A DNA stretch of 64,000 bases from Periplaneta americana (lineage: Eukaryota; Arthropoda; Insecta; Blattodea; Blattidae): contig NC_091122.1 in assembly GCF_040183065.1 (NCBI RefSeq), forward strand, positions 83,131,955-83,195,954. Reading direction: 5' to 3'. Position numbers and translations under genes: made by a program. Under the pieces are notes generated by a model. The model was not told where the DNA came from, did not search any database, and saw only the letters and a list, made by a program, of their open reading frames with translations. Position 1 is the first letter of the stretch. Every line of letters begins with the position of its first letter. Of this stretch, positions 4,730 to 54,692 are shown piece by piece.

Positions 4730-6739
4730 GAGGACTATTTTCACAAAACTCAACAAACCCCACTTCAAAAATTTTACAGGAAACGTTTTTTTTAGTATAT
4801 TCTCCGACCTTTGATGCTATAATTCTGAAAAAAAAATTTGGGCATTGTTCCTCTTTCAGAGATGCATTAATTGATATGAAGTGCAATTATTATTGTTGTC
4901 TTATTTATTTGGAAAAAAATATGACAAAAGTTAAGAATTTCACAAAACTCAACATATCCACTTTTTTAAATGCACATACCTTATAATGTTTAATTATTTT
5001 TCATTCGCAGCTGTAAAATCCTCATCAAAATCATTAATATGTATTTTAAAATAGTTCTTAAGTACTCCTGAATTAAAAAACAGTTAATTGAAACACAATG
5101 AAACCTAATTTCAAGCTTTTTTTGTTCTCTCCAAAATTTGTTATTGACTTACAAGAACTCTTTATTTGCACGAATTAACTGTTTCTATTTGTGCAATACA
5201 TTACACAGATCACTGAAGATCAAAATCTTGCACAATAATTTTGTTGCAATGGTTCATCATAATCTATTCTATTACCAGAATCTTTGGCATATCCCTTTAA
5301 AACTTTACCATAAAATACCTTGCTTCCCCTCTCCGAAATACCATTATGGAAGTAACTCATTAACTTCCTCATATCATTACCTTTGTTTTTGCTGACATGG
5401 TTCACCAGTGAAAGGTCAGATGCTTTAGACATTACAGAAGCACTTGTCTTTCTTGGTTTAAACACTTGAACTTGTATTGGTGCAGAAAAATTTGTGTTTT
5501 GTAAATAACACTTTACACGATTCTTACAAGTTCTTTGGTACGTAAATACTCTCATGTCAGATAATTTAAATGGTAATTTGACTTTTACATTATTTTTTGT
5601 CATCGATTTTAAATCACAAGTATGCCAGCCTTTGCCCAAAAGTTTTACGTCCCCAAACATTGCCATAATTTCATAATAAATAAACACATGGTCCGGAGGC
5701 ATATAGCTATGGACACGGATAGGAAAGAAATGTTTAATTTCCTTAAAAACTTCAGAGCTTTCCAGATAACCAACAAGCATGGCAATCAGTATGCAATTTT
5801 TATTCTGAGACCCACAAGAATCTGAAAACAATCTCTAAGAGTTAATTTCAGGATTTTTCTGTTAGTAAACATTTTTTCTAAATTACCTATGTCATCCTTC
5901 AATGTCGTAATAACATACTTGTCACTTTTCTAAACGTAGCAGCACATAGGCCTACTGGGAAATCTTCTCCATTTTCACCTCTTACGAAATATGAAATAGA
6001 CACAAATCTTTCTAGCTTTTTGAAGTCCTTCTATGCCGCTTAGGTAGATCAACTTTCATTTGTCTTGGCAAAAAATTATCCTGTTCAACTTTTGTGCTAC
6101 TTCTGTATAAATTGTCTCGAAAATTAATTAGATCATTTAAGCAGAAGGAACCTGCAGCACGTTTTCTTTTTCCCTTTTCTCAATGATTACAGTCTAGTTT
6201 GGAGGTATGTCATTATTTTTAGGCGCAACTATATATTTCTTACTCTTACATTAACGTACTCTTCTGCTACTCTTTCTGCCCCTTTCAGTAGCTTGAACGG
6301 ATTTAGAATACTCAGGGTTCTTATCCAATTTTCATCAGCATTCATAAAATACATCACTTACAACAGCGGCCAGATTTATACTGAATTAACGCAAGAAACA
6401 ACAAAATATTATAGAATATTTGAGCTCCGAAATGTGTCACTGTTGTCAAAATGCAAATGTGTTACATTGTTGTAAAATATTGTAGCTTGTGAAACAGGAT
6501 AGAAGTGTGAAATGTTGAGTTAGAGGATATGTTGAGTTTTGTGAAAATTTAAGAACTGGAGATGTTGAGTTTTGTGAAAACTCTCTACATTGAGGCACTC
6601 TTTTCAACGGAAAATGTTGAGTTTTGTGATATTATGAGCACTGCATCATTTTCCTCTCATTACAATTGACCAGAATCCGTCAAAACCCGCATTTCGAAAA
6701 AAAAAATGGCGTTTGTTGAGTTTTGTTAAAACGGTCCTC
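4730..6739 (-). mobile_element. TIR DNA transposon with DUF7869-like ORF and repeated subterminal motif
   Basis: The ends are inverted copies: GAGGACTATTTTCACAAAAC at the left, mirrored at the right by GTTTTGTTAAAACGGTCCTC. Both are flanked by AATT (4726-4729 and 6740-6743), either a 4-bp target duplication or the outer TIR. The motif CACAAAACTCAACA occurs at 4742-4755 and 4941-4954. Its complement TGTTGAGTTTTGTG occurs at 6530-6543, 6563-6576 and 6615-6628, with a variant at 6714-6727 inside the right TIR. Such arrays often serve as transposase binding sites; that role is inferred. The only coding remnant, on the minus strand, is described separately. Length is about 2.0 kb. The superfamily is not one I can name with confidence. 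Confidence 0.7.
5220..6165 (-). pseudogene. DUF7869-like transposon protein, internally deleted
   Basis: A 203-codon open frame (5831 down to 5223) begins FSDSCGSQNKN, followed at about residues 31-51 by IKHFFPIRVHSYMPPDHVF. This resembles the (F)(A/S)D.C.GQNKN ... FP.RGHS..P.D..F block of an insect repeat-encoded family that I believe databases call DUF7869. Upstream on the same strand (about 6165-6040) another open stretch reads NFRDNLYRSSTKVEQDNF and DLPKRHRR, which fits the more N-terminal part of that family. Only about 200 nt separate the two, much less than the usual spacing, so an internal deletion is likely. The intervening frame has stops. The function is unproven; the Asp-rich block could belong to an RNase H-like transposase core. 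An HMM search would settle the family. Confidence 0.55.
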
Positions 6740-11900: not shown

Positions 11901-13008
11901 CTATCTATACTAATAATAAATTTGTAGCCGAAATTTTTCTGGTAATTTTCGATTTTCCAAAAATTATTGGTCCTAACATATATAATTAACCACCCTGAAA
12001 CCGAAAATCGCTTTTTTGAAATTTTTGTTTGTATGTATGTCTGTCTGTCTGTCTGTCTGCATGTTTGTTACCTTTTCACGCGATAATGGCTGAACGGATT
12101 TCGATGAAAATTGGAATATAAATTAAGTTCGTTGTAACTTAGATTTTAGGCTATATGGCATTCAAAATATATTATTTAAAAGGGGAGTTATAAGGAGGCC
12201 TGAATTAAATAAATCGAAATATCTCGCTTATTATTGATTTTTGTGAAAAATGTTACATAACAAAAGTTTCTTTAAAAATAATTTGCGATAAGTTTTACTC
12301 CTTGAAAAAGTTTGATAGGACTGATATTTAATGAGGTAAATGAGTTTTAAAATTAAAATAACTGCCATCTAAGGTCGTGTAATGAATTAAAAAACAAATG
12401 ACTCCGTCTATAAGGGGCCTTGGACAGCAACAATCGAAAGCTATTAAACATAGCCTACAGACAATGTTTCTGTGTTTGTATGAAGTAATATCTGAAGCTA
12501 AATTAACCGATTTGTATAATTAATTATTATTTCACCATTGGAAAGTGTAGTTTCCCTAGATGGACATAATGCTATAATGTTATTACAGTAACGTCTGAGT
12601 AAATCGAGGACAGGTAAGATTAAAATAGCTTTTATGCACAGAAAATTTGATAGGCTATTTTGTACATTCGTTTTCTGTATTTCTTGAAATAATATTTATG
12701 TACACTCATTTCAATCTCAGAGAATTAACGAACAACGAGAGTGTATTGATTCAGTATGCAGTAATAGTACGTTAGCTTAGCAATCCATTATTTTATAATT
12801 AAAATTTTAACTATGCTCAATTGAATCGTGTTAAAATACATAAAATATATATGTAATAAATGCAATGCAAAAAAATTGGGTAATGAGCGAAGCAGATTAT
12901 TTTCCGCTGTTGTAAAAGTTGTTCCCTGGATCAAACGTCCTATTTTAATTATGTAATTACTTTATATTTATTTCTAACAGGTGCAGCGGAGCGCACGGGT
13001 ACGGCTAG
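11901..13008 (+). mobile_element. Non-autonomous Helitron, copy 1 of a tandem pair
   Basis: The 5' end reads TCTATACTAATAATAAA (from about 11,904). The inner text TTCACGCGATAATGGCTGAA and CGGATTTCGATGAAAATT is typical of arthropod Helitrons. The 3' end has a small hairpin (GTGC.GC with GC.GCAC at about 12,981-12,996), eight bases, then CTAG (13,005-13,008), the usual CTRR ending. No Rep/helicase frame. An internal deletion relative to copy 2 joins GTTGTTCC to CTGGATCAAA. No target duplication is expected. Confidence 0.8.
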
Positions 13009-14413
13009 TACTAATAATAAATCTGTAGCCGAAATTTTTCTGGTAATTTTCGATTTTCCAAAAATAATTGGTCCTAACATATATAATTAACCACCCTGAA
13101 ACCGAAAATCGCTTTTTTGAAATTTTTGTTTGTATGTCTGTCTGTCTGTCTGTCTGCATGTTTGTTACCTTTTCACGCGATAATGTCTGAACCGATTTCG
13201 ATGAAAATTTGAATATAAATTAAGTTCGTTGTAACTTAGATTATAGACTATATGGCATTCAAAATACGTTATTTAAAAGGGGGGTTATAAGGAGGCCTGA
13301 ATTAAATAAATCGAAATATCTCGCTTATTATTGATTTTTGTGAAATATGTTACATAACAAAAGTTTCTTTAAAAATGATTTCTGATAAGTTTTATTCTCT
13401 GAAAAAGTTTGATAGGACTGATATTTAATGAGATAAATGAGTTTCAAAATTAAAATAACTGCCATCTAAGGCGGTGTATTGAAATAAAAAACAAATGACT
13501 TCGTCTATAAGGGGCCTTGGACACAACAATCGAAAGCTATGAAACATAGCCTACAGACAATTTTTCTGTGTTTGTATGAAGTAATAACTGAAGCTAAATT
13601 AACCGATTTGTATAATTAATTATTATTTCATCATTGGAAAGTGAGTTTCTCTGGATGGACATAATACTATAATGTTATTACAGTAACTTGTGAGTGAATT
13701 GAGGACAGGTAAGATTAAAATAGCTTCTTATGCACAGAAAACTTGATACGTTATTCTGTATATTCATTTCCTGTATTTCTTATAATAATGTTTATGAACA
13801 TATCAATTTTTATCTCTGAGAATTAACGAACAACGAGAGTGTATTGATTTAGTATGCAGTAATAGTACGTTTGCTTAGCAATCCATTATTTTATAATTCG
13901 AATTTTATCTCTGCTCAATTGAATCGTGTTAAAATACATAAAATACATATGCAATAAATGCAATGCAAAAAAATTGGGTAATGAGCCAAGCAGATTATGT
14001 TGCGCTGTTGTAAAAGTTGTTCCTCCTGAGATTCAAGAGCTCCCACAACAAATTAAAAACTTTCTAATTTGAGTACATCCGTTATCAACACACTTTTTCA
14101 TAACATAGTATAATATAAACATAATAATAAATCTGTAGCCAAAATTTTTCTGTCAATTTTCGCTTTTCCAAAAATAATTGGTAATAACAATTAAGAAACA
14201 TGTTAAAGGAATTGTCATTGCACCAAATGAGTGGTCTCCGGATCAAAATGATCGCATTTTAGTATTTTAAATACAATTTAAATTAAGTAACATATTAAAC
14301 GATTTATCCTTCTATCAAACACGAATGTCCCTGGATCAAATATCCTATTTCAATTATGTAATTACTTTATATTTATTTCTAACGGGTGCAGCGGAGCGCA
14401 CGGGTACGGCTAG
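13009..14413 (+). mobile_element. Non-autonomous Helitron, copy 2, fused head-to-tail
   Basis: Starts at once after the CTAG of copy 1 with TACTAATAATAAATCTGTAG, lacking only the first bases of the 5' end. It ends in the same hairpin plus CTAG at 14,410-14,413. A further 5'-end-like block (AATAATAAATCTGTAGCC) begins near 14,118. The array therefore has three 5' starts and two 3' ends, as expected from rolling-circle read-through or nested insertion. Confidence 0.75.
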
Positions 14414-14590
14414 TAATCAATAAAATTATAGCTATGAACATCAACAATTATTATAAGACTGTCCTGATATTGAAAAAGAAGTCACAAAATATCGAATGTT
14501 AATTTTTTAACTAGAATGAAGAGTTAGAGTACGTAGGACTTAGTATTTGACAATAATTTGGATAATTAAGAGTATAGGAGTAAATTTCAA

Positions 14591-17289: not shown

Positions 17290-18460
17290 TTTATTCCACT
17301 GGGAAACAAGACGATCAATCCCATTCTTGAAAAAGCTTGTGAGCTATCTTTACCCAGTCACACACGTCTTCGCCCGATGCAAAACGAAGTCCACGAATGT
17401 CTTTCAACTCTCCAAAAATGTGAAAATCGCATGGGGATCTGGGCTGTAGGGGGGATGTTGAAGCGTTTCCCAACCAAATCTCTGCATCGTATTCCTCACA
17501 CAGTTCGCAGTAGCCTATGTAGGCGGGCATTATCATAAAGAAGGATAACGCCGTTCGATAGTTTTCCAGGCCGTTTTGACTTAATGGCACGTCTCAGTTT
17601 CTGTAAAGTTTCTTCATAACGCTGTGCATTTCTTGTGGCCCCATGCTCGAGAAATTCAACAAGCAGAGGACCACTAGAATCAAAGAAGTCCACACCTGTG
17701 GAGTAACGGTTAACACGTCTAGCCGCGAAACCAGGTGGCCCGGGTTTGATTCCCCGTCGGGGCAAGTTACCTGGTTGAGGTTTTTTCCGGGGTTTTCCCT
17801 CAACCCAATATGAGCAAATGCTGGACAACTTCCAGTGTTGGACCCCGGAATCATTTCACCGGCATTATCACCTTCATCTCATTCAGACGCTAAATAACCT
17901 AAGCTGTTGATAAAGCGTCTTAAAATAACCTACTAAAATAAAAATCAAAGAAGAATGCCAACATGACTTTACCGAAACTTGTGGGAATTGCTTTGGACTT
18001 TTTCGGTGGCGGAGAATCCATGTGTTTCCATTGTTGGCTCTTCCGTTTGCTCTCTGGTTCAAATGGTGACACCACGATTCCTTCCCAGTGACAATACGGG
18101 ACAGAAATGCGTACTCTTCCTCGTGGTATCGTTGCAAGTGACCCAGTGAAGCGGCCATTCTGTTTGTTTTTTGTTCCTCCGTCAACTGATGTGGAACTCA
18201 TTGCGCGCAGATTTTTCGGTAATGCCGGTGCTTCGTCGCAATGACGTGTTCGGAATCGTGACTTATTCCCATCAAACTACGAAGTGATTCGTCGATTTCC
18301 CCGTATAAGACCATCAACCTCAGCAATAACAGCAGGGGTAATGGCATGATGAGCCTGTTCTGGGCGAACATCCTCCTGCAGTGACATTCGTTCCTCTCGG
18401 AATCTCTTGTGTCATTTCAGTACACGCGAACATCCATAATCAGTTCAGTGCCCCCATATT
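17290..18460 (-). pseudogene. mariner-family transposase pseudogene
   Basis: In order on the minus strand: HTH remnant GISHDSEHVIATKHRHYRK (about 18,280-18,220), TEEQKTNRMAASLGHLQRYH (from 18,185), then SRIVTGKESW where an active enzyme has TGDE.W. Next come PESKRKSQQWKH and PPPKKSKAIPTSFGKVML, all mariner hallmarks. After the inserted SINE the frame continues with LVEFLEHGATRNAQRYEETL, ILLYDNARLHR (second Asp kept) and PCDFHIFGELKDIRG. The HPPYSPDLAPCD block is scrambled, though the CD remains. The first catalytic Asp is replaced by Lys in GKES. Multiple frameshifts and the SINE make it inactive. Terminal repeats were not located. Confidence 0.85.
17689..17942 (+). mobile_element. tRNA-derived SINE, family 1, inside mariner
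   Basis: Flanked by a perfect 11-bp target duplication AATCAAAGAAG (17,678-17,688 and 17,943-17,953). Head: CACACCTGTGGAGTAACGGT with B-box-like GGGTTTGATTCCC. Body: GAGGTTTTTTCCGGGG. Tail: TAAATAACCTA followed by AAAATAAAA. Other copies are at 27,848-28,095 and 59,583-59,832 (minus). Confidence 0.9.
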
Positions 18461-32224: not shown

Positions 32225-32838
32225 TAAGAATACAACTGAAATTAAAATTTCAGTTAATATTAAATTTACAGTTACAATAAAATCAAAGTACTATAACATT
32301 ACCTGATGAATAAATACTGAACAATTTACTGTAGAATTTTACGGCAAAAAAGAAAGTATTATTTGCTGAAGTACAAATTAAACGTAGAATAATTATCCAG
32401 GTATGACATTACTGGAGATTGATACTACAATAAGAGAACTATTTACAAAAGGAACAGAACAAGTACTGTCACTACATTTAAAGTTACCTATACAAGATTC
32501 CCAATGAGAGGAACGTTTTCTTTCTGTTCAAACTGGAAAACATGCTAAATGCTTAGTATGTGGACACTCTGTTATAGTAAAAGAAATATAACGTTGAGCC
32601 ACATTACATGATCAAGTATACTCAAACATATAATGATACTGTTGGAGATAAACTTATGCAACTAATATAAAATTTAAATCAGTCCTTCGTCAATGAGAAA
32701 AGTTGCTTTAGTAAAATAAAGTATTGTTTCAGACATTTCTCTGCTCATCGCAAAACACAAGAAACAAAATTATATAAGAAAACACATGAAGCAAAACCAT
32801 AATAGCATTTCATTGTGTAGATAGACATAATGTAAATA
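32225..32838. other. No recognisable feature
   Basis: AT-rich spacer. Confidence 0.5.
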
Positions 32839-33076
32839 TAGGGTAAACTAGGGTCTGTTGGACAGTCGGGCATGTTGGACACTCCGTACTTTAACGTGTT
32901 ACCTCGCCACTTGTGGGCAACACATTCTGCTAGAAATCAATGACGGAAGTAGTCACGAGTGGGGCTACTTCCGTCATTGATTTCTAGAAGAATGTGTTGC
33001 CCACAAGTGGCGAGGTAACACGTTAAAGTACAGAGCGTCCAACATGCCCGACTATCCAACAGACCCCAGTTTACCC
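32839..33076. mobile_element. Near-perfect palindromic MITE
   Basis: Ends GGGTAAACTAGGGTCTGTTG and CAACAGACCCCAGTTTACCC are flanked by TA. The arms are about 112-115 bp each and nearly identical, leaving a centre of roughly 13 nt (CACGAGTGGGG). A transcript would be an almost fully paired hairpin. Confidence 0.85.
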
Positions 33077-33267
33077 TATTGTAAAAATAACTCTCTGATT
33101 TGAAAAGACAAATTGAAATGAAGTAATTAAATATTATTGTCAAAGACATAAAAGAAAATGCATAAAGCAAAATACTTTGTTGTTTAAATAATATAAATGT
33201 GTTACAAATAAAACTCTCTAATTTTAAAAGAAATAATATTGAAATAATCTTGTCAATCCCACTACAA

Positions 33268-37250: not shown

Positions 37251-37736
37251 TTAAATTCGTTTGTTCGTCTATTTGTCCGTCCATGCGTCTGCTTTTGTAC
37301 AGCGATTTCTTCTACACATTTCGACGGATATTTTTACATATCCAGTATTTGCAACTAACTTCTCACCCGGCAATTTTATATTCAAATACTCATATTAAAA
37401 ATAATAATTGGTAACTGTAAGAAAACACTAAATAGTGATTCATTTAAAATCGAAGTTAAATTTTTTCTTTAATACCTTCTTTATGCAAACATTAAATAGC
37501 ACATAGAAATTTAAAGACAACATATCTGCGAGAATAATCACTTTTAACTCCGAATAGTGTTCTCTCATAGTGATCCATTATTATTTTAATGTGTATATTT
37601 CAATATAAAATTGCTGGATGAGAAGTTAGTTGCAAATACTGGATGTGTAAAAAAATCCATCGAAATGTGCAGAAGAAAACGCTTTACCAAAGCAGACGCA
37701 TGGAAGGACAAATAGACGGATAAACGAAACACCTAA
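37251..37736. mobile_element. Fold-back MITE with about 150-bp inverted ends
   Basis: Left: GTCTATTTGTCCGTCCATGC, GTATTTGCAACTAACTTCTC. The right end is their near-complete inverse (GCATGGAAGGACAAATAGAC, GAGAAGTTAGTTGCAAATAC). A central unique part of about 180 bp has no ORF. Confidence 0.75.
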
Positions 37737-42655: not shown

Positions 42656-44203
42656 TATCTAGCACAATTACTTTACACTTTATGTGTGATATTAAGTGAC
42701 TTTTTACTCGCTCCATATTTGTAAACGAATGTGTTAGTTCGGTTATTAAATTTAGTAATGTTTCACAATTTCCCATTCATTTCTTAATCTTATCTTTGCA
42801 TAATACTTCTCACAAAGAGCGAGTCACAGCAGCAGGAAATATCAATTCAATTCAATTCAGTCAAGAATTTCAAGGTTGTAACCCCACTACTGGACTATTT
42901 TAGCATCAATCTAAGGAACTCTCATGTAGATTACACAACTTCTTACAAGCTAAAAGTAAATTACTAATTTCTGCATTATCTATAAATCACACTGATTCTT
43001 AACGATATAAGTAACACATGGATGCACAATATGATAACCTATAATATCTACAAGAATGCATTCAACAGATTATCCTTACAAATTTTATATGTGGGTATCA
43101 GCATAGATGAAAAAGGAGACTGAAGAAATGTCTGTCTTCCTCTTTAACGTACATAAATTTGTTATTCGAAACACCACTTGGTCTAGAATTAAGTTATGAC
43201 TACAGTATAAATAAATGTTATTTTATTTGACTTTTCACGCCAGAATCCTGGACTTACACCAACGTCGACTGTAATGCTATTTTTTGCACGATCGTGCCTT
43301 TTGTTGCATTTAAGCTATTGCTGTTAGGCCTTGAGAATTATAATTCCCACACAGAAACTTGTTGCTAGGGAAACCATCCTTCATAACATGAAACTACACT
43401 GAAATAGACCCATTACATTGCACTTATTATTACTTAATTATCATCACAGTGCAGTTTTGCGAAGGCTTTGGAATAGTATTGCTCTAAATATATTCTATAT
43501 GTGATTTTAAAAATATAATCGTGCAAAAAAGTTGTACAATACAAGTTTGTGAAGTGCATTACAAAATCTGGGAAATTAAAAATTTCGCTCTGGTCGTTTT
43601 CCAAACGTATTCTCGATTTTGTGAAAAGTACTTCCCAATCTTGTATCGTAATATACTATTTAGTAGGTTTTATTTGAGTGCTACTTTCTTCTGTTTGACC
43701 AATTCCCTCAATCACCTCATAATCATTGCTTTCAGACAGATTTTACGGCCTCCCCAATAATATCAAAATCATAGACGGATTCTTTTACATTCATGACAAA
43801 CAAGAAAGAAAAATATATTATGGGAAAACCAAGGAGCATATCTACATTTCTCTAACCTGCCTGTTATGTCACAAAGAAGTTATCGTACATTATCAACACT
43901 TTGTATCCTGTAGAGCCATCGCAGCAAAAAAAAAAACATTATATGCAAATATTGGGAAGCTAGATCGCTAATGGCTTCATTGCTAGACGCGACTCCACAT
44001 TAGAAACCAACCAACTATATTTCATGGATATTACATGTGATCTACGGTTATAACTTTGACGTTAACTATAAAAACTTTGCATTATTACTGCGAATTCATT
44101 TGCGCGATGAACAGGAAATTTTAAGTTCAGTAATTTATGTTTTACAAATGAACTTAACATCATGCAATTGTCGCGCAAATTTTCCTTAAATAGCTTGAGT
44201 CTA
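42656..44203. other. Unassigned spacer
   Basis: No gene recognised. The open frame at 43,726-43,971 has no known domain. Confidence 0.45.
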
Positions 44204-44572
44204 TGTGTAGTCTACTGGCCAAGTTGATTCCGTTATGTGTAATCTACTGACCAGGTTGATTCCATTATGTCGTGTAGTCTACTAGCCAGATTGATTCCGT
44301 TATGTGAAGTTTACTGGCCAGGTTGATTCCATTATGTGTAGTCTACTGGCCAGGTTGATTCCGTTATGTGTAATCTACTGGTCATGTTGATTCCGTTATG
44401 TGTAATCTACTGACCAGGTTGATTCCATTATGTCGTGTAGTCTACTGGCCAGGTTGATTCCGTTATGTGTAGTTTACTGGGCAGGTTGATTCCATTATGT
44501 GTAGTCTACTGGCCAGGTTGATCCCGTTATGTGTAGTCTACTGGCCAGAGTGATTCAGTTATGTATAGGGTT
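44203..44572 (+). repeat. 32-bp minisatellite with five-unit higher-order repeat
   Basis: Eleven units of the type TATGTGTAGTCTACTGGCCA plus GGTTGATTCCGT. Units 3 and 8 carry a 3-bp insertion (TATGTCGTGTAG). Units 2-6 match units 7-11 position by position in their variants, which shows a duplicated five-unit block. The units abut without spacers. Confidence 0.9.
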
Positions 44573-46735: not shown

Positions 46736-47905
46736 TACAGGGAGCTTTACTTGGAAACTGGATTTGCATAATTTACGAGTAAAATAGATTTTCATTGTAA
46801 TATAGCGGATAGCTCCTCTGCTTAATTGGTTGCATTACTGAAAATTATTTCGAGAGTTCAATACCAGAACCAGCGCCTAAATAGGATTTTTATAGATTTA
46901 CGCGAAATTAAAATATCACAACAAAGCATTGACGTAATTTTAAAACACCTTCCAGCACTTGTGATTTAAAATAGTTGCTAATTTGTTATAAATTGGTCTG
47001 AGAAATCATTAAGTGCTCTGTCTACATCTTAATAGGGATTTCATATCTGACCAGTCACTTTCTGGAAACAAATTACAAGAGAAATAAATTGTTAATTGAT
47101 ATCTTTATCTTAATGTTACAAATCATATTATTTATTCTCACTTCCATATCACATCATCATCTTGTCCTGTCAACTATAAGCCTGACAGCAAAATAGTGTG
47201 TAGTTGAACAAAACATATAAAACAAGCCTAAGAGAATTTCATTCACGGAGTTGTCTTGCATGACAGTTGCACAGAATCTCCTCAGTCCATTCAGTTGCCT
47301 GACCAAACCTTATCTCTTGAGAAGATTCTTTCATCGTTGCTCCACCTTTCTACGAACTATTTCTCTTCGCTTGTGCATTCAAACTCGTGAAACTGGGTTT
47401 GAAATCCTTATATGAAAAATCCTATGAAGTTTTTTCTTTATTTAACCGCATTTCAGAAACCCCAACTTCGGTGTATTTTAGTAAAGGAACAATATCCAGC
47501 GAGTTCGACACTCAACAGAAACGAAAGCGAGTTGTGTAGAGATTAGATGGCACATGAAAACTCGTCTCAAATTTGTTTTAGTAAAAAATAATAATGAGAA
47601 AGTTTAACTACCACCATCAGTTAATCAATATCGCTTTAGAATATATGAATTACGCTCTCAGAATTTCCTAGACAAAGTTACTTTAGGCATATACAATTAT
47701 TTAAAAGGCAAATAGCTAAAAAAACAACGAAAATCTATTCGAGTTCTAATAGAATAATGGCAAATTATTTCAGTCCTACTGGAAATATATGTTCCATGTC
47801 TTGTGTTTTTCTTCTATCTCTCCAAGCTACTGCTTTACGCCGTGCTGGCCGCATTAACAAGACTTCCTCTGGTTGTGAATGTGTTTGTTGAGATTTCTAC
47901 ATATG
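46736..47905. other. Unassigned spacer
   Basis: A weak tRNA-like stretch lies at about 46,803-46,885 (GCGGATAGCTCCTCTGC ... AGAGTTCAATACC) but the boxes are poor. Otherwise nothing recognised. Confidence 0.4.
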
Positions 47906-49227
47906 AATCATTCACTCGAACAACGTTGTAACCAACAAAAAATAAATTTTGTAGGAGAATAAAAAAAAATTTGTTTAATGCTTTACCATAATTATTTTAT
48001 TAGTACAATCCGGATATGTAAGTAAACACCATAATTTTATAAAGTAATCTAAAGAGTTTAACACACTGCGTTTCATTTACACCTGATTAACAGAAAAATT
48101 AAAATGTTTTAGTAGGAACAACGTTGTATCTGGCTGGTTACAACGTTGTTCTTATTTGAAAATTTATTCAAATTAAGTAAAGTAATTTTAAATTTAGCAT
48201 GTAATAGAAAACTGCAGTTAATTCTTGAGTACAAAATTAAGAAATAGTTAAACGAAAAAGATATTTCGTAATATCAAAATTCTATAGAAACTTGGAATCA
48301 GAGTTCTATTGAAACAATCACTAACCTGTGTTGTACTCAAATATATATTCTAAGGTCACCAATTAGGATGAGTATGCTTTTCTTCAAGTGATTTTTACAT
48401 TTCTTTGGCGCAAGTGTGATGAAATTGCGATTTCGATTTTAATTTTCTTTAACTTTTTCAGATGAGACAGCAATCACCTACATAAGGAATTTGCCACAAT
48501 ATGAATGTGAATCGGACCTAGGAACACGAAATTTCAATCGAAAATCACTTATAGAGATAATTCATACATGCTTTCAGTGACATAAACATTGGGATGTTTC
48601 TCCTGGAAATTATCATACAGTACATCTTGAGCACATTCAGTTGTGAACTTAAGAAACAGTTCACACCATTATGCCTAGAATAGAGACTATCCTGTATTGG
48701 AAATGACTGAATGTATTTTTTCACGAAGTTTTTGTCACAATTGGGAATTTTATTTGGCCTGTTCGAATGCTTTCCTCTTATGTCTTATTAACTTCAAGGA
48801 AGACCAAATTATTTGTACTATTTAAGCATTTATGCACTAGTTTCACTTACAACGTTGTTCTATTCATTCCATTAGCTGGTAGTTTTCCAGGAACATGTTG
48901 CTTCCTTTCAAAATATATGCGCATTCGCTGTTTTAGCTCCTTTTGTTTGTAATCTGTACAATTAGTAAGATTAACTTTCCGTCTTTTATATTTATTGAGT
49001 CTTTTTTTTATCACAACCCGTCAAAGAAAGAACACCAGAATTGTTTCTGATTACAACGTTGTTCTACTAAACAGTAATTTCAAATATCTGTAACAACTTA
49101 GTGTCAACTGTAGATTTAGGCTTAAACAAAGTTTTCCATCACATACAGGAGGGCAGATACAAAATTGTTCTATCTATAACTAATTTTCAATAAAAGTATT
49201 GGTTACAACGTTGTTCAGGTGAATGAT
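47906..49227 (-). mobile_element. TIR transposon with six ACAACGTTGT palindromes and DUF7869-like remnant
   Basis: The ends ATCATTCACTCGAACAACGT and ACGTTGTTCAGGTGAATGAT are inverted. The 10-bp palindrome ACAACGTTGT occurs at 47,919, 48,118, 48,140, 48,849, 49,053 and 49,205, mostly flanked by GA or GGTT. The pair at 48,118 and 48,140 is head to head. A minus-strand coding remnant (48,545-48,752) belongs to the same family as that in the 4730-6739 element. No clear target duplication. The design (motif scattered inward from TIRs) is shared with that element although the motif differs. Confidence 0.7.
48545..48752 (-). pseudogene. DUF7869-type transposon protein, N-terminal-side fragment
   Basis: The open frame reads NFVKKYIQSFPIQDSLYSRH, then FLSSQLNVLKMYCMI and a stop. 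In the family to which the 5220-6165 frame appears to belong, the part before the C-terminal core usually reads V...I.SFP...SHYSR.......YL...LNV.KMY. The next downstream text, in another frame, has FRVPRSDSHSYCGK, which fits FG.PRSDTC..C. So a frameshifted copy is present but the FSDSC..QNKN core is not. Family from memory. Confidence 0.5.
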
Positions 49228-49232
49228 TTATA

Positions 49233-50830
49233 GGGTAAATCAGGAAAATATGGGCACTTTTAAGGTAATGCCCATGTTACCCTAATTCTTCGTGAGTTAC
49301 GAAGCATCAGATAGTATATTGATATACCTGGAATAAGGTGGCGAACCACAGTGTGAATGGTGTTGACGCTGCTGGACATGTGAACGCTACGAATGTAATT
49401 ATTTATGTGAGTAGACATTGGAGCAAAGCAAAAATAGTGCTTTTGTTGATTTTTGCATGACTTACTTAAGGAATTATTGCCACAAATGTGTGAGTAGTAC
49501 CGAAATCTTTACAGGCGGGAATGGTAGATTTAAACAGAACAATAATCCATATGATGGGGGTTCTGAAGCATGTACTTGCTAAACTGACTGGTCATTTGTT
49601 GAAGTAATACAGTAAGGCAAATATGGGAATGTCATTCAGGGTGTTATGGGCACAAGCATTGAATGCTATTTTTCAAGTCGTTCATTGATATTTTTCTATA
49701 GAATGGAACTGTAAGAGGTAAATGTCCTTTATATAATATCTTAATTATCTAAATTATTGTCAAATACTAAGTCCTCTTATTCTATTATATTATTTTCATT
49801 CCAGTTTTAAAAAATTAACATTAGATGATTTTGTGACTTCCTTCTCAGTACTAGTACAGTCATAGATATAATAATTGTTTATGTTCATTGCTATAATGTT
49901 ATTGATAATAATACAAATTATATACAAAATTTAGTTTATAGAAATGGATTGTTATCTTACACAGGAACTAAAATATTTTTATTTGTTTTCATCTGTTTTT
50001 CTGAAGTTAACAAAAGAGTGACAACAAGAGCCAATACATTTAGAAAACCAGCAACTAGAAAGCACTTGAAAACGAACGCATCTTCTTCAATAAATGCTTC
50101 TTGCATTTGTCTTGCATGTGGAGGAAATTTTTATACTGATCAAAATGGAGAGAAATAAGTACAGTGTGAAGAATTATTCGCTTTTTTGGTACAATGAAGA
50201 ATGTGATAGGATGAAAAGTGATTCATTTTTCTGTGATGACTTCACGAAATAAATTTAGAAAATTATTTTGACTTCTTTTGCTTTTGTTCTTAGTCTTTTA
50301 GAGAATTATACCATTTGAAATAACATTTGTCACTACTTGAAGTATTTTTTCATATTCTTTCTTCCTGATTGAATGTGTTAAATCAATTTTAATGTAGTCT
50401 CAGTGTTTACATGTTTACATAAATATTAGTTTTTTTTTTATTTTCATTTGCTCAATGTTCTGTTAATTCGCTAATAACTTTATTCTATGAATGGCTAGTC
50501 TATGAAGCATTAAATACATTTATTTTGTATTATAAATAACTTTGAAAATTTAAAATGCATTTAATTCCCATACAACCCATATTATTAACATAGCCTATGT
50601 GTCCATATTATACTCGTACTTACAGTGCAGATAATGTGGGAGCTTGTAAGGTTCAAGTAAAATGCAAATAATATATGCGACATACAAGAATAATTTTAAC
50701 ATTTGAATGGGTTATATATTTTAAAATAGATATACTCTAAAATGTTTTAGGTTTGTAAACTGTTATCATTATTAAAGTGCAAGATATAGAGTAAAATGCC
50801 TTATGGTGCACATATTTGCCTCACTACCAC
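49233..50830 (+). mobile_element. pogo-like transposon, full length but decayed
   Basis: The left end GGGTAAATCAGGAAAATATG follows TA. The right end is a diverged inverse (CATATTTGCCTCACTACC, about 50,812-50,829). It is collinear, inverted, with the split copy at 11,030-14,590. It begins within a few bases of the end of the neighbouring transposon (49,227). Confidence 0.65.
49949..50252 (+). pseudogene. pogo-type transposase C-terminal zinc knuckle
   Basis: Frame: ATRKHLKTNASSSINAS, CICLACGGNFYTDQNGEK, then a stop where the family has Trp. Reading on: VQCEE, then (frame shifted) NEECDRMKSDSFFCDDFTK and the natural stop. The pattern C..C.........W.QC..C..W.H..C.......F.CD.C is the C-terminal motif of several pogo-class transposases. 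The DDE domain upstream is not recognisable. The copy at about 11,600-11,750 (minus) shares it. Confidence 0.6.
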
Positions 50831-53245: not shown

Positions 53246-54692
53246 CACTTGGTCAAAATGAAACTGCCCGGCCTCTTGAGCAGTTAAAATTTTCTAAGTC
53301 CCTTCGGGTGAGCGTGCAGTTCACTATCGTAAACCTCCGTGCGCAGCTTTAGTTAACTCCAAATCAAATAGGTTTGATTATGTTAATTCATGTTACTTAC
53401 AGATAATTACAAAATTGATGAAAATTTGTGGTTATATTTCCAGGAAATCAGGATATATTTTGTCATCAGAATTATGGTTTTTCTTTTTGTTCACAATTAC
53501 TACGTTTAGGCCCTGTTGATCATGGATTTAGGTTAGCATAATAATCATATTCCCTGTAGCACATCTTGCAAATTAATTATTGCCAATTATTTAACCGTCA
53601 ACATTATTTTCTGAATGTTCCTTAGGCAAAAAGAGTGTAAAGCAACAAGGATTAATAAAATAATTAACACAGCATTTTAATACCTCCACAGCGTGCTTAG
53701 CGTGGAGCAGTGGTTAAGCTACTTAACTTTTATGCAGACAGTTCGGTTTCGAATCTCAGTAGTGAATTTTTGTTCTGCACTTTCTTTTATTTTTTACAAC
53801 TCGTTTTAGTGTAATATAGTCAAATTATTTTGATTATGTTACTTCATGTTACTTACAGATCATTACAAAATTGGTGAAAATTTGTGGTTATAATTCCAGG
53901 AAATCAGGATATATTATGTCATCAGAATTATGGTTTATCTTTTTTGTTCGCAATTACTACGTTTAGGCCCTGATGATCATGGATTTAGATTAGTATAATG
54001 ATCATATTCCCTGTAGCACTACTTGTAAATTAATTATTGTCAATTATTTAACCGTCAACATATTTACTAAATGTTCCTTAGGCAAGAGAGTGTAAAGCAG
54101 CAGGAAATAATAAAATAATTAACACAGCATTTTGATATGAAAGCCCCTAATTGTTGTCTTTAGTGTTACTTCCACATAGCGTCAAAATTTCAATTAACAC
54201 GAAAAAAATAAAGCAAAAAATATTCTAAGGATAAAAAAAATGACGAAATCCTGTTATATTTTCACTGATGCATTTAAAAGGCAAAAAGAAGAAGAAGAAA
54301 AAAGAAATTTAGCAGCTCCAGGAACATTTGAACTTTCAACCTCACGAATACTTAGCTAACGCTGTACCACTACTCTAAGAGTACTACTACAGTAAGAACG
54401 GCATTGTAACGAGCAATGATCATACTCCACTTGAGAACCTGTTATGCAGTATATAGTGTTTGTGTTACAATATTTATTGTTTAAAGACTCTGAACGCTCT
54501 GTCTGTTTTAAATCTCGTATATGAATTATTTTCTCGGAAGACTTTAGTGAATAATAGTTGTGTTCCCCATTATAACTACTAGAAGAATATAAGCAATCTT
54601 TTGAAAAAAGCCTGGCTGTCCCGAGCGCTCACGGAAATACCCAATTCGAACTTAGTCTCTTAGACGGCGGCCAGTTTCATTTTGACCAAGTG
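53246..54692. mobile_element. Composite TIR element with internal duplication and SINE heads
   Basis: The left end CACTTGGTCAAAATGAAACT is the inverse of the right end AGTTTCATTTTGACCAAGTG. TA lies on both sides (53,244-53,245 and 54,693-54,694), a Tc1/mariner-type target. The inner TIR parts (GTGAGCG, CCCTTCGGG vs CGGGACAG) are diverged. Inside are a 311-bp direct repeat (listed separately), a tRNA-like head at 53,695-53,775 and an antisense one at about 54,325-54,395. No transposase frame. Confidence 0.7.
53373..54137 (+). repeat. Direct repeat, about 311 bp, spaced 455 bp
   Basis: 53,373-53,683 and 53,828-54,137 run in parallel (TTTGATTATGTTAATTCATG and TTTGATTATGTTACTTCATG; both end near AATTAACACAGCATTTT). 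About 90 percent identical by eye. The 144 bp between them holds a tRNA-like head (AGCAGTGGTTAAGCTAC, GGTTTCGAATC). Confidence 0.85.

Follow-up and report, generated by a model that had tools for sequence, protein, structure and literature searches.

A motif repeated in a decayed DUF7869-family transposon of Periplaneta americana is most likely the recognition site of its lineage's transposase

Six copies of one 10-bp palindrome, ACAACGTTGT, lie within 47920-49214 of a stretch of the Periplaneta americana genome (64,000 nucleotides of contig NC_091122.1, forward strand, positions 83,131,955 to 83,195,954; hereafter the window), raising the question of what kind of element carries them and to what end. 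We conclude that they belong to E2, a member of the DUF7869 family of cut-and-paste DNA transposons that is decayed and non-autonomous, and that the repeated motif is most likely the recognition site of its lineage's transposase. The evidence comprises the terminal inverted repeats (TIRs), the target-site duplication (TSD), the protein family, the recurrence of the motif at similar positions, its specificity to the lineage and the better preservation of motif columns. After a genomic test, the interpretation of E2 in a preliminary description made from the letters of the window is supported.

Exact copies of ACAACGTTGT start at positions 47920, 48118, 48140, 48849, 49053 and 49205 and nowhere else in the window, compared with a mean of 0.04 copies in shuffled sequence; 0 of 100 shuffles held six or more. 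A search for clusters of any 11-mer (at least five copies within 2.5 kb, in both orientations) returned two places, E2 and a second element, E1, and a five-copy cluster occurred in 0 of 60 simulated windows. Thus, the palindrome copies are beyond chance, as had been claimed. A third 11-mer cluster, at about 44.2 kb, is a tandem array with all copies in one orientation (44202-44568, about 11 copies of a 32-bp unit). The six exact palindromes stand, but the unit proper is larger: all six copies are embedded in one and the same asymmetric 13-mer, GAACAACGTTGTA, of which they form the core. Two copies lie inside the inverted arms (34 nt, 91% alike) and the sites at 48116 and 48139 form a head-to-head pair, both as first described. 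The element had been placed at 47906..49227; the location was right, and the ends are corrected to 47905 and 49229 by TIR and TSD. A first guess of a 2-bp TSD, made from the window only, was dropped since relatives show 4 bp. The features of E2 are as follows.

47905..49229, minus strand: E2, decayed non-autonomous DUF7869-family DNA transposon with TIRs, TSD and coding remnant; its 3' end is on the left
47901..47904, no strand: left TSD, ATAT; same-lineage copies have TSDs of the form ANNT
49230..49233, no strand: right TSD, ATAG, differing from the left TSD at one base
47905..47935, plus strand: 3'-end TIR, GAATCATTCAC..GAACAACGTTGTAACC
49199..49229, minus strand: 5'-end TIR
47918..47930, plus strand: site 1, GAACAACGTTGTA, in the 3' TIR
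48116..48128, plus strand: site 2, 198 bp inward of site 1
48139..48151, minus strand: site 3, head-to-head partner of site 2
48848..48860, minus strand: site 4
49052..49064, minus strand: site 5, 5' internal, about 164 bp from the 5' end, retained in derived short elements
49158..49170, minus strand: degenerate seventh copy of GAACAACGTTGTA, two mismatches
49204..49216, minus strand: site 6, in the 5' TIR
48548..48784, minus strand: transposase remnant, profile positions 155-212, N-terminal half, E 1.3e-6
48481..48561, minus strand: collinear transposase remnant in another frame, profile positions 230-251, E 0.026

The second element had been called a '4.7-kb element'; it does exist at 4.7 kb, but is 2.0 kb long. 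Its ends were set by the same rule as those of the relatives described below.

4730..6739, minus strand: E1, second DUF7869 element, motif TCACAAAACTCAACA, TSD AATT/AATT (a palindrome)
5220..5834, minus strand: E1 catalytic (DUF7869) open frame, 204 residues, profile E 4.6e-49
4741..4755, plus strand: site in the 3' TIR
4940..4954, plus strand: 3' internal site, 199 bp inward
6530..6544, minus strand: 5' internal site
6563..6577, minus strand: 5' internal site
6615..6629, minus strand: 5' internal site
6714..6728, minus strand: site in the 5' TIR, one mismatch

The first relative of the E1 open frame was the protein P0001 (E 1.7e-24). An alignment-based search returned 134 relatives at E ≤ 0.01, and 110 of the 120 listed carry the Pfam domain DUF7869; named hosts include Pyrocoelia, Dryococelus, Blattella, Melitaea, Amphiura and a fish. 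A profile built from the 61 listed relatives of at least 440 residues was run on all 1546 reading-frame pieces (at least 25 residues) of the window. Its five best matches all lie in E1 (E 4.6e-49, 5.7e-7 and 1.1e-3) or E2 (1.3e-6 and 0.026), with the next-best window piece at 0.41 and the best reversed piece at 0.52, and the E2 remnant at 48548-48784 scored 23.7 bits against a best of 7.6 among 2000 shuffles. The E2 remnant therefore shares a family with E1, as had been proposed, and the motifs of the two elements do differ (TCACAAAACTCAACA in E1, GAACAACGTTGTA in E2). Since its profile matches are confined to positions 155-251, E2 keeps part of the N-terminal half; the match at 1.3e-6 falls outside the DUF7869 part of the profile. 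A protein search with the E2 remnant alone as query gave one candidate and none scored. The Pfam model itself, PF25273, is matched by 59 of the 61 long relatives, and with the E1 open frame gives E 0.016, short of the cut-off, as compared with 4.6e-49 for the relatives' profile.

A structure model of a full-length relative, P0012, is RNase-H/DDE transposase-like, with an RNase-H fold and three acidic residues; on this model, DUF7869 proteins are likely to be RNase-H/DDE-fold transposases. No hAT, piggyBac or THAP domain was present among the Pfam matches of the 61 relatives at 0.01, and none of the five Pfam families matched is named Sola2. Scans of viral contigs and genome contigs yielded no protein relatives, tblastn against phages gave no match, a structure search in a viral library returned nothing below 0.001 and a PDB sequence search with the profile found no match. 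For four proteins, NCBIfam matches lay far below cut-off (for example, an IS481 transposase model in P0004, 18.1 bits with a cut-off of 224). The DNA pattern was matched in 21 stretches of viral contigs, once in each; these matches were judged to be chance and were not used.

Relatives were then sought in the source genome (3.23 Gb, 91 contigs), where 150 of 2969 DUF7869 candidates were scored and 25 loci fetched (20, with 5 added). Twenty of the 25 could be bounded, giving, together with E1 and E2, 22 elements in 13 lineages with lengths of 1.3-5.4 kb across lineages; catalytic parts are 53-100% identical within lineages. At 15 of the first 20 loci and 4 of the 5 added ones, the gene is enclosed by a TIR pair flanked by an exact 4-bp duplication of the form ANNT, a count biased upwards by choosing the TSD register where a duplication exists. 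Nine of the 19 exact duplications are non-palindromic and so cannot be extensions of the TIR, and the common A..T form together with the common TIR start speaks against a TSD artefact. TIRs start mostly with GA or GG (one lineage has CG, and one TIR each of L051 and L053 starts with T). The TSDs are mostly AATT, ATTT, AAAT and ATAT, with ATGT and AACT departing from AWWT; at L033 the pair is TTTT/ATTT, and at L034 and L035 the register is ambiguous inside an AT run. At L047 and L049, the DUF7869 elements sit between long inverted repeats (arms of about 305-349 bp) resembling another repeat family.

The position of the motif was assessed with 14-mers taken from both TIRs (starting at positions 7-31), whereby matches to an element's own words were compared with matches to those of other lineages, first in a set of 17 elements from 10 lineages. 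In the stretch 195-255 bp from the 3' end, 14 of 17 elements had a copy of their own motif with at most one mismatch and all 17 had one with at most two, as compared with 0/254 and 11/254 for other lineages' motifs. With at most two mismatches, own and other matches were 11/17 and 2/254 at 140-205 bp from the 5' end, 5/17 and 4/254 at 80-125 bp from that end, and in the control regions 0/17 and 3/254 (centre), 0/17 and 9/254 (3' 400-460 bp) and 1/17 and 10/254 (5' 400-466 bp). Over all 22 elements, with low-complexity words excluded and at most two mismatches in 14, the own motif was found in 20/22 at the 3' place (other 16/438) and in 15/22 at the 5' 140-205 bp place (other 6/438), the controls giving 1/22 versus 5/438 (3' 400-460 bp) and 1/22 versus 9/438 (centre). 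Within 45-600 bp of the 3' end, matches with at most one mismatch (merged) were present in 17 of 22 elements and 10 of 13 lineages, all at 209-276 bp; on the 5' side, matches fell at 99-201 bp except for two (375 and 587). The inward spacing from TIR copy to 3' internal copy is 199 bp in E1 and 198 bp in E2, and 183-255 bp for the best 3' site of those other lineages in which there is one. The orientation of the internal copy varies among lineages. In a separate comparison of TIR words (at most two mismatches in 12) with shuffles, 12 of 17 elements were matched by at most 3 of 100 shuffles. A looser count (at most three mismatches in 14), in which the own motif exceeded every other lineage's motif in only 10 of 17 elements, was set aside as too loose. 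Thus, the elements of a lineage carry further copies of their TIR motif internally, at comparable distances from the ends. The earlier notion that each lineage has its own scattered binding site holds insofar as the 13 lineages sampled in this genome agree with a single motif for each lineage, two of them being exceptions at one place or the other; the copies, putative binding sites, are however ordered rather than scattered.

A DNA search of the same genome with E2 gave 68 matches (E2 included) from 40 scored of 83 candidates, and 20 loci were fetched. Of these 20, 12 contain the exact 10-mer and 18 contain the 13-mer when up to one mismatch is tolerated; hence the motif is not absent from the genomic relatives of E2, whereas such an absence would have counted against the first description. 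As the relatives were picked by similarity to E2, motif presence is partly a matter of selection, and column identity is the fairer test. By this measure, motif columns are 90.0% identical (849 cells) and other columns 78.4% (6878 cells), an excess equalled by 12 of 5000 random window sets. Two loci, L055 and L056, are long relatives (about 5.1 and 6.0 kb) with most sites in matching places and kilobases inserted inside; the 3' TIR motif copy of L055 is degraded, and no catalytic part was found in either. The remainder include a short family (L057-L072; 17 copies of 238-256 bp in 16 fetched loci), in which the outermost 65 bp at the 3' end are fused to the 5' portion running outward from site 5, and which starts almost exactly at that site. 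This family is a natural deletion, which probably arose in one event, and its structure suggests that sites 2-4 were dispensable for its spread. TSDs were examined in 21 rows (not L073), and four in which one end could not be located were set aside; the 17 rows with both ends (E2 included) comprise 9 exact 4-bp ANNT duplications, 5 with one mismatch and 3 with two.

Several observations weigh against taking the motif as a recognition site of an ordered kind. The position windows were picked after inspection of the first 17 elements, so that the five added elements (L033 and L051-L054, with three new lineages) carry weight; among these, the 3' site was found, with at most two mismatches, in three (L033, L052 and L054) and the 5' 140-205 bp site in four, L053 and L051 failing at the 3' end (the L051 copy stands at 276 bp, outside the 195-255 bp window). 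Over all 22 elements, the 5' 80-125 bp place held the own motif in only 5 (other 4/438); lineage l has no 3' internal site in the window tested and lineage j no 5' 140-205 bp site. The comparison of TIR words with shuffles was not significant for 5 of 17 elements (L030, L037, L038, L047 and L048). Five loci (L032, L040, L043, L049 and L050) were dropped for want of an acceptable end pair, the grouping into lineages was made by eye, on the basis of TIR and protein, and copies of one lineage are not independent. No catalytic half was detected in E2 with the profile of 61 relatives. Among E2 relatives, site 5 is no better kept than its flanks (86.9% versus 87.8%) and site 2 hardly better (87.2% versus 85.8%). 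Furthermore, the short derivatives do not have sites 2-4, including the 3' internal sites, and their site 5 is altered (its third base as printed is identical in 24%), from which it follows that not every site is needed unchanged.

We next consider how motif and protein vary together. A first motif-protein correlation was weak (0.32 and 0.38) and a second contained low-complexity windows; for these reasons a correlation over 13 lineages with such windows filtered out is preferred. In it, motif similarity correlates with identity of the catalytic part (Spearman 0.60, 66 lineage pairs, 0/5000 label permutations) and of the N-terminal part (Spearman 0.33, 63 lineage pairs, 87/5000 permutations), two values of unequal power since the N-terminal comparisons have fewer columns. 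Lineage c has 15 of 18 motif bases in common with its closer relatives d, h and j (proteins 35-47% identical); f and h share 14/18, and k and m, as well as c and m, 13/18, with proteins only 23-37% identical. The correlation is one of inheritance along the family tree and gives no sign of special co-variation with a DNA-binding domain. The expectation that the motif would vary with the putative DNA-binding part is thus borne out in that the motif tracks the transposase, and not in that the catalytic part does no worse than the N-terminal part in tracking it.

The alternative that survives best, and which we hold as possible though less probable than not, is that the motifs diverged by time alone, inherited with the element and with no reciprocal change in the DNA-binding domain; this is compatible with the motifs being transposase sites. 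The higher correlation for the catalytic part and the 15 of 18 motif bases that lineage c shares with its closer relatives point this way, but time alone leaves the preservation of motif columns and the kept positions unexplained, and the unequal power of the two correlations tempers their comparison. We think it unlikely that the internal copies are functionless by-products of end duplication or repair, in which end fragments were copied inward: the copies do resemble the TIR, their orientation varies among lineages and some lineages have no copy at one or another place, yet the places recur in most of the 13 lineages despite differing motifs and element lengths, the controls are nearly empty and the motif columns of E2 relatives are better kept. 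Less likely still is binding by a host protein, such as a regulatory or chromatin factor. Six palindromes do look like a regulatory cluster; one host factor, however, predicts one shared motif, contrary to the different motifs found in similar places, and motif similarity tracks that of the transposase. The shortness of E2 and its broken gene might suggest chance, or else an unrelated repeat in which a coding fragment is nested; this can be put aside as wholly improbable given the shuffles and simulated windows above, the existence of relatives and the fact that the five best-scoring profile matches all fall within the two clusters, with no other piece above background.

If the motif is a transposase recognition site, the enzyme would bind it in the TIRs and at internal places about 200 bp from the 3' end and about 165 bp from the 5' end. 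With one TIR copy per end and further spaced copies, several transposase molecules could pair the ends before cutting; the unequal ends would give the transposase-DNA complex a handedness. E2 and its short derivatives would have been moved in trans. As places are similar but each lineage has its own site sequence, an enzyme should mobilise mainly its own lineage's copies. Protein binding, pairing of ends, movement in trans and the absence of cross-mobilisation are inferred here by analogy, being modelled on Sleeping Beauty, Galileo, piggyBat and hAT as presented in the consulted parts of PMC8151067, PMC3688188, PMC11707139 and PMC4763223. More broadly, there is perhaps an even chance that these elements constitute a superfamily with a fixed end plan, in which site sequence and even orientation are rewritten in every lineage, many lineages coexist without cross-mobilisation and the constrained trait is the spacing, about 183-255 bp on the 3' side.

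Sola enzymes have been described as DDD. Among known systems, Sola2 is comparable in its ends, with short TIRs and, in amoebae, a 4-bp AT-rich TSD of the form AWWT, here ANNT; no ordered internal sites are described for Sola2 in the consulted parts of that source (PMC3627910). The form of the TSD fits Sola2 in a comparison that covered TSD and TIRs. In the Tc1-like inverted repeat/direct repeat element Sleeping Beauty, according to the consulted parts of PMC8151067, ends of about 230 bp hold an inner and an outer site for the transposase, and the distance between sites is important. The motif copies described here, putative transposase sites, lie in inner- and outer-type places, but the 4-bp TSD differs from TA, the protein is different, the two ends are unequal and site orientation varies. 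The parts consulted of PMC3688188 describe several THAP-domain binding sites per long end in Galileo (P-element superfamily), with a footprinted site at +63 to +80 and two more in long direct repeats, and recognition that differs between subfamilies; in contrast to Galileo and the P element, THAP is absent among the Pfam matches of the 61 relatives here. Repeated internal sites near the ends, partly palindromic in piggyBac, are reported for piggyBac/piggyBat and hAT in the consulted parts of PMC11707139 and PMC4763223, elements of other protein families that differ also in TSD (TTAA in piggyBac and 8 bp in hAT, against 4-bp ANNT). Ends that carry several transposase sites are thus already known from other transposons, and in Galileo recognition is known to be specific to the subfamily. 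In the open-licence literature searched, we found no description of a DUF7869 end plan with lineage-specific motifs and no mention of DUF7869 or of three conserved peptide strings. The 13 sampled lineages of one genome offer a natural series in which protein and site sequences differ and the end plan is similar, making testable the joint change of transposase and binding site and the isolation of families from cross-mobilisation. Additionally, DUF7869, labelled 'unknown function', gains a likely role together with ends and target sites.

Other repeats were noted in the window. A further palindrome, TAGGCCTA, occurs in 26 copies spread from 1518 to 61860 (0.59 expected from shuffles) and is not linked to one element. 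Direct repeats spaced by about 1.1 kb, whose pieces are 85-97% alike and which have a partial third copy, occupy 11908-14415, and another direct repeat, about 456 bp apart and 89-93% alike in pieces, lies at 53364-54137. Mariner-type transposase remnants are present on the minus strand at 17499-18276 (PF01359, E 4.5e-9; the next frame, at 0.019, is short of the cut-off). Finally, fold-backs with close arms of 130 nt (91%) and 145 nt (89%) are found at 32823-33094 and 37256-37728, respectively.
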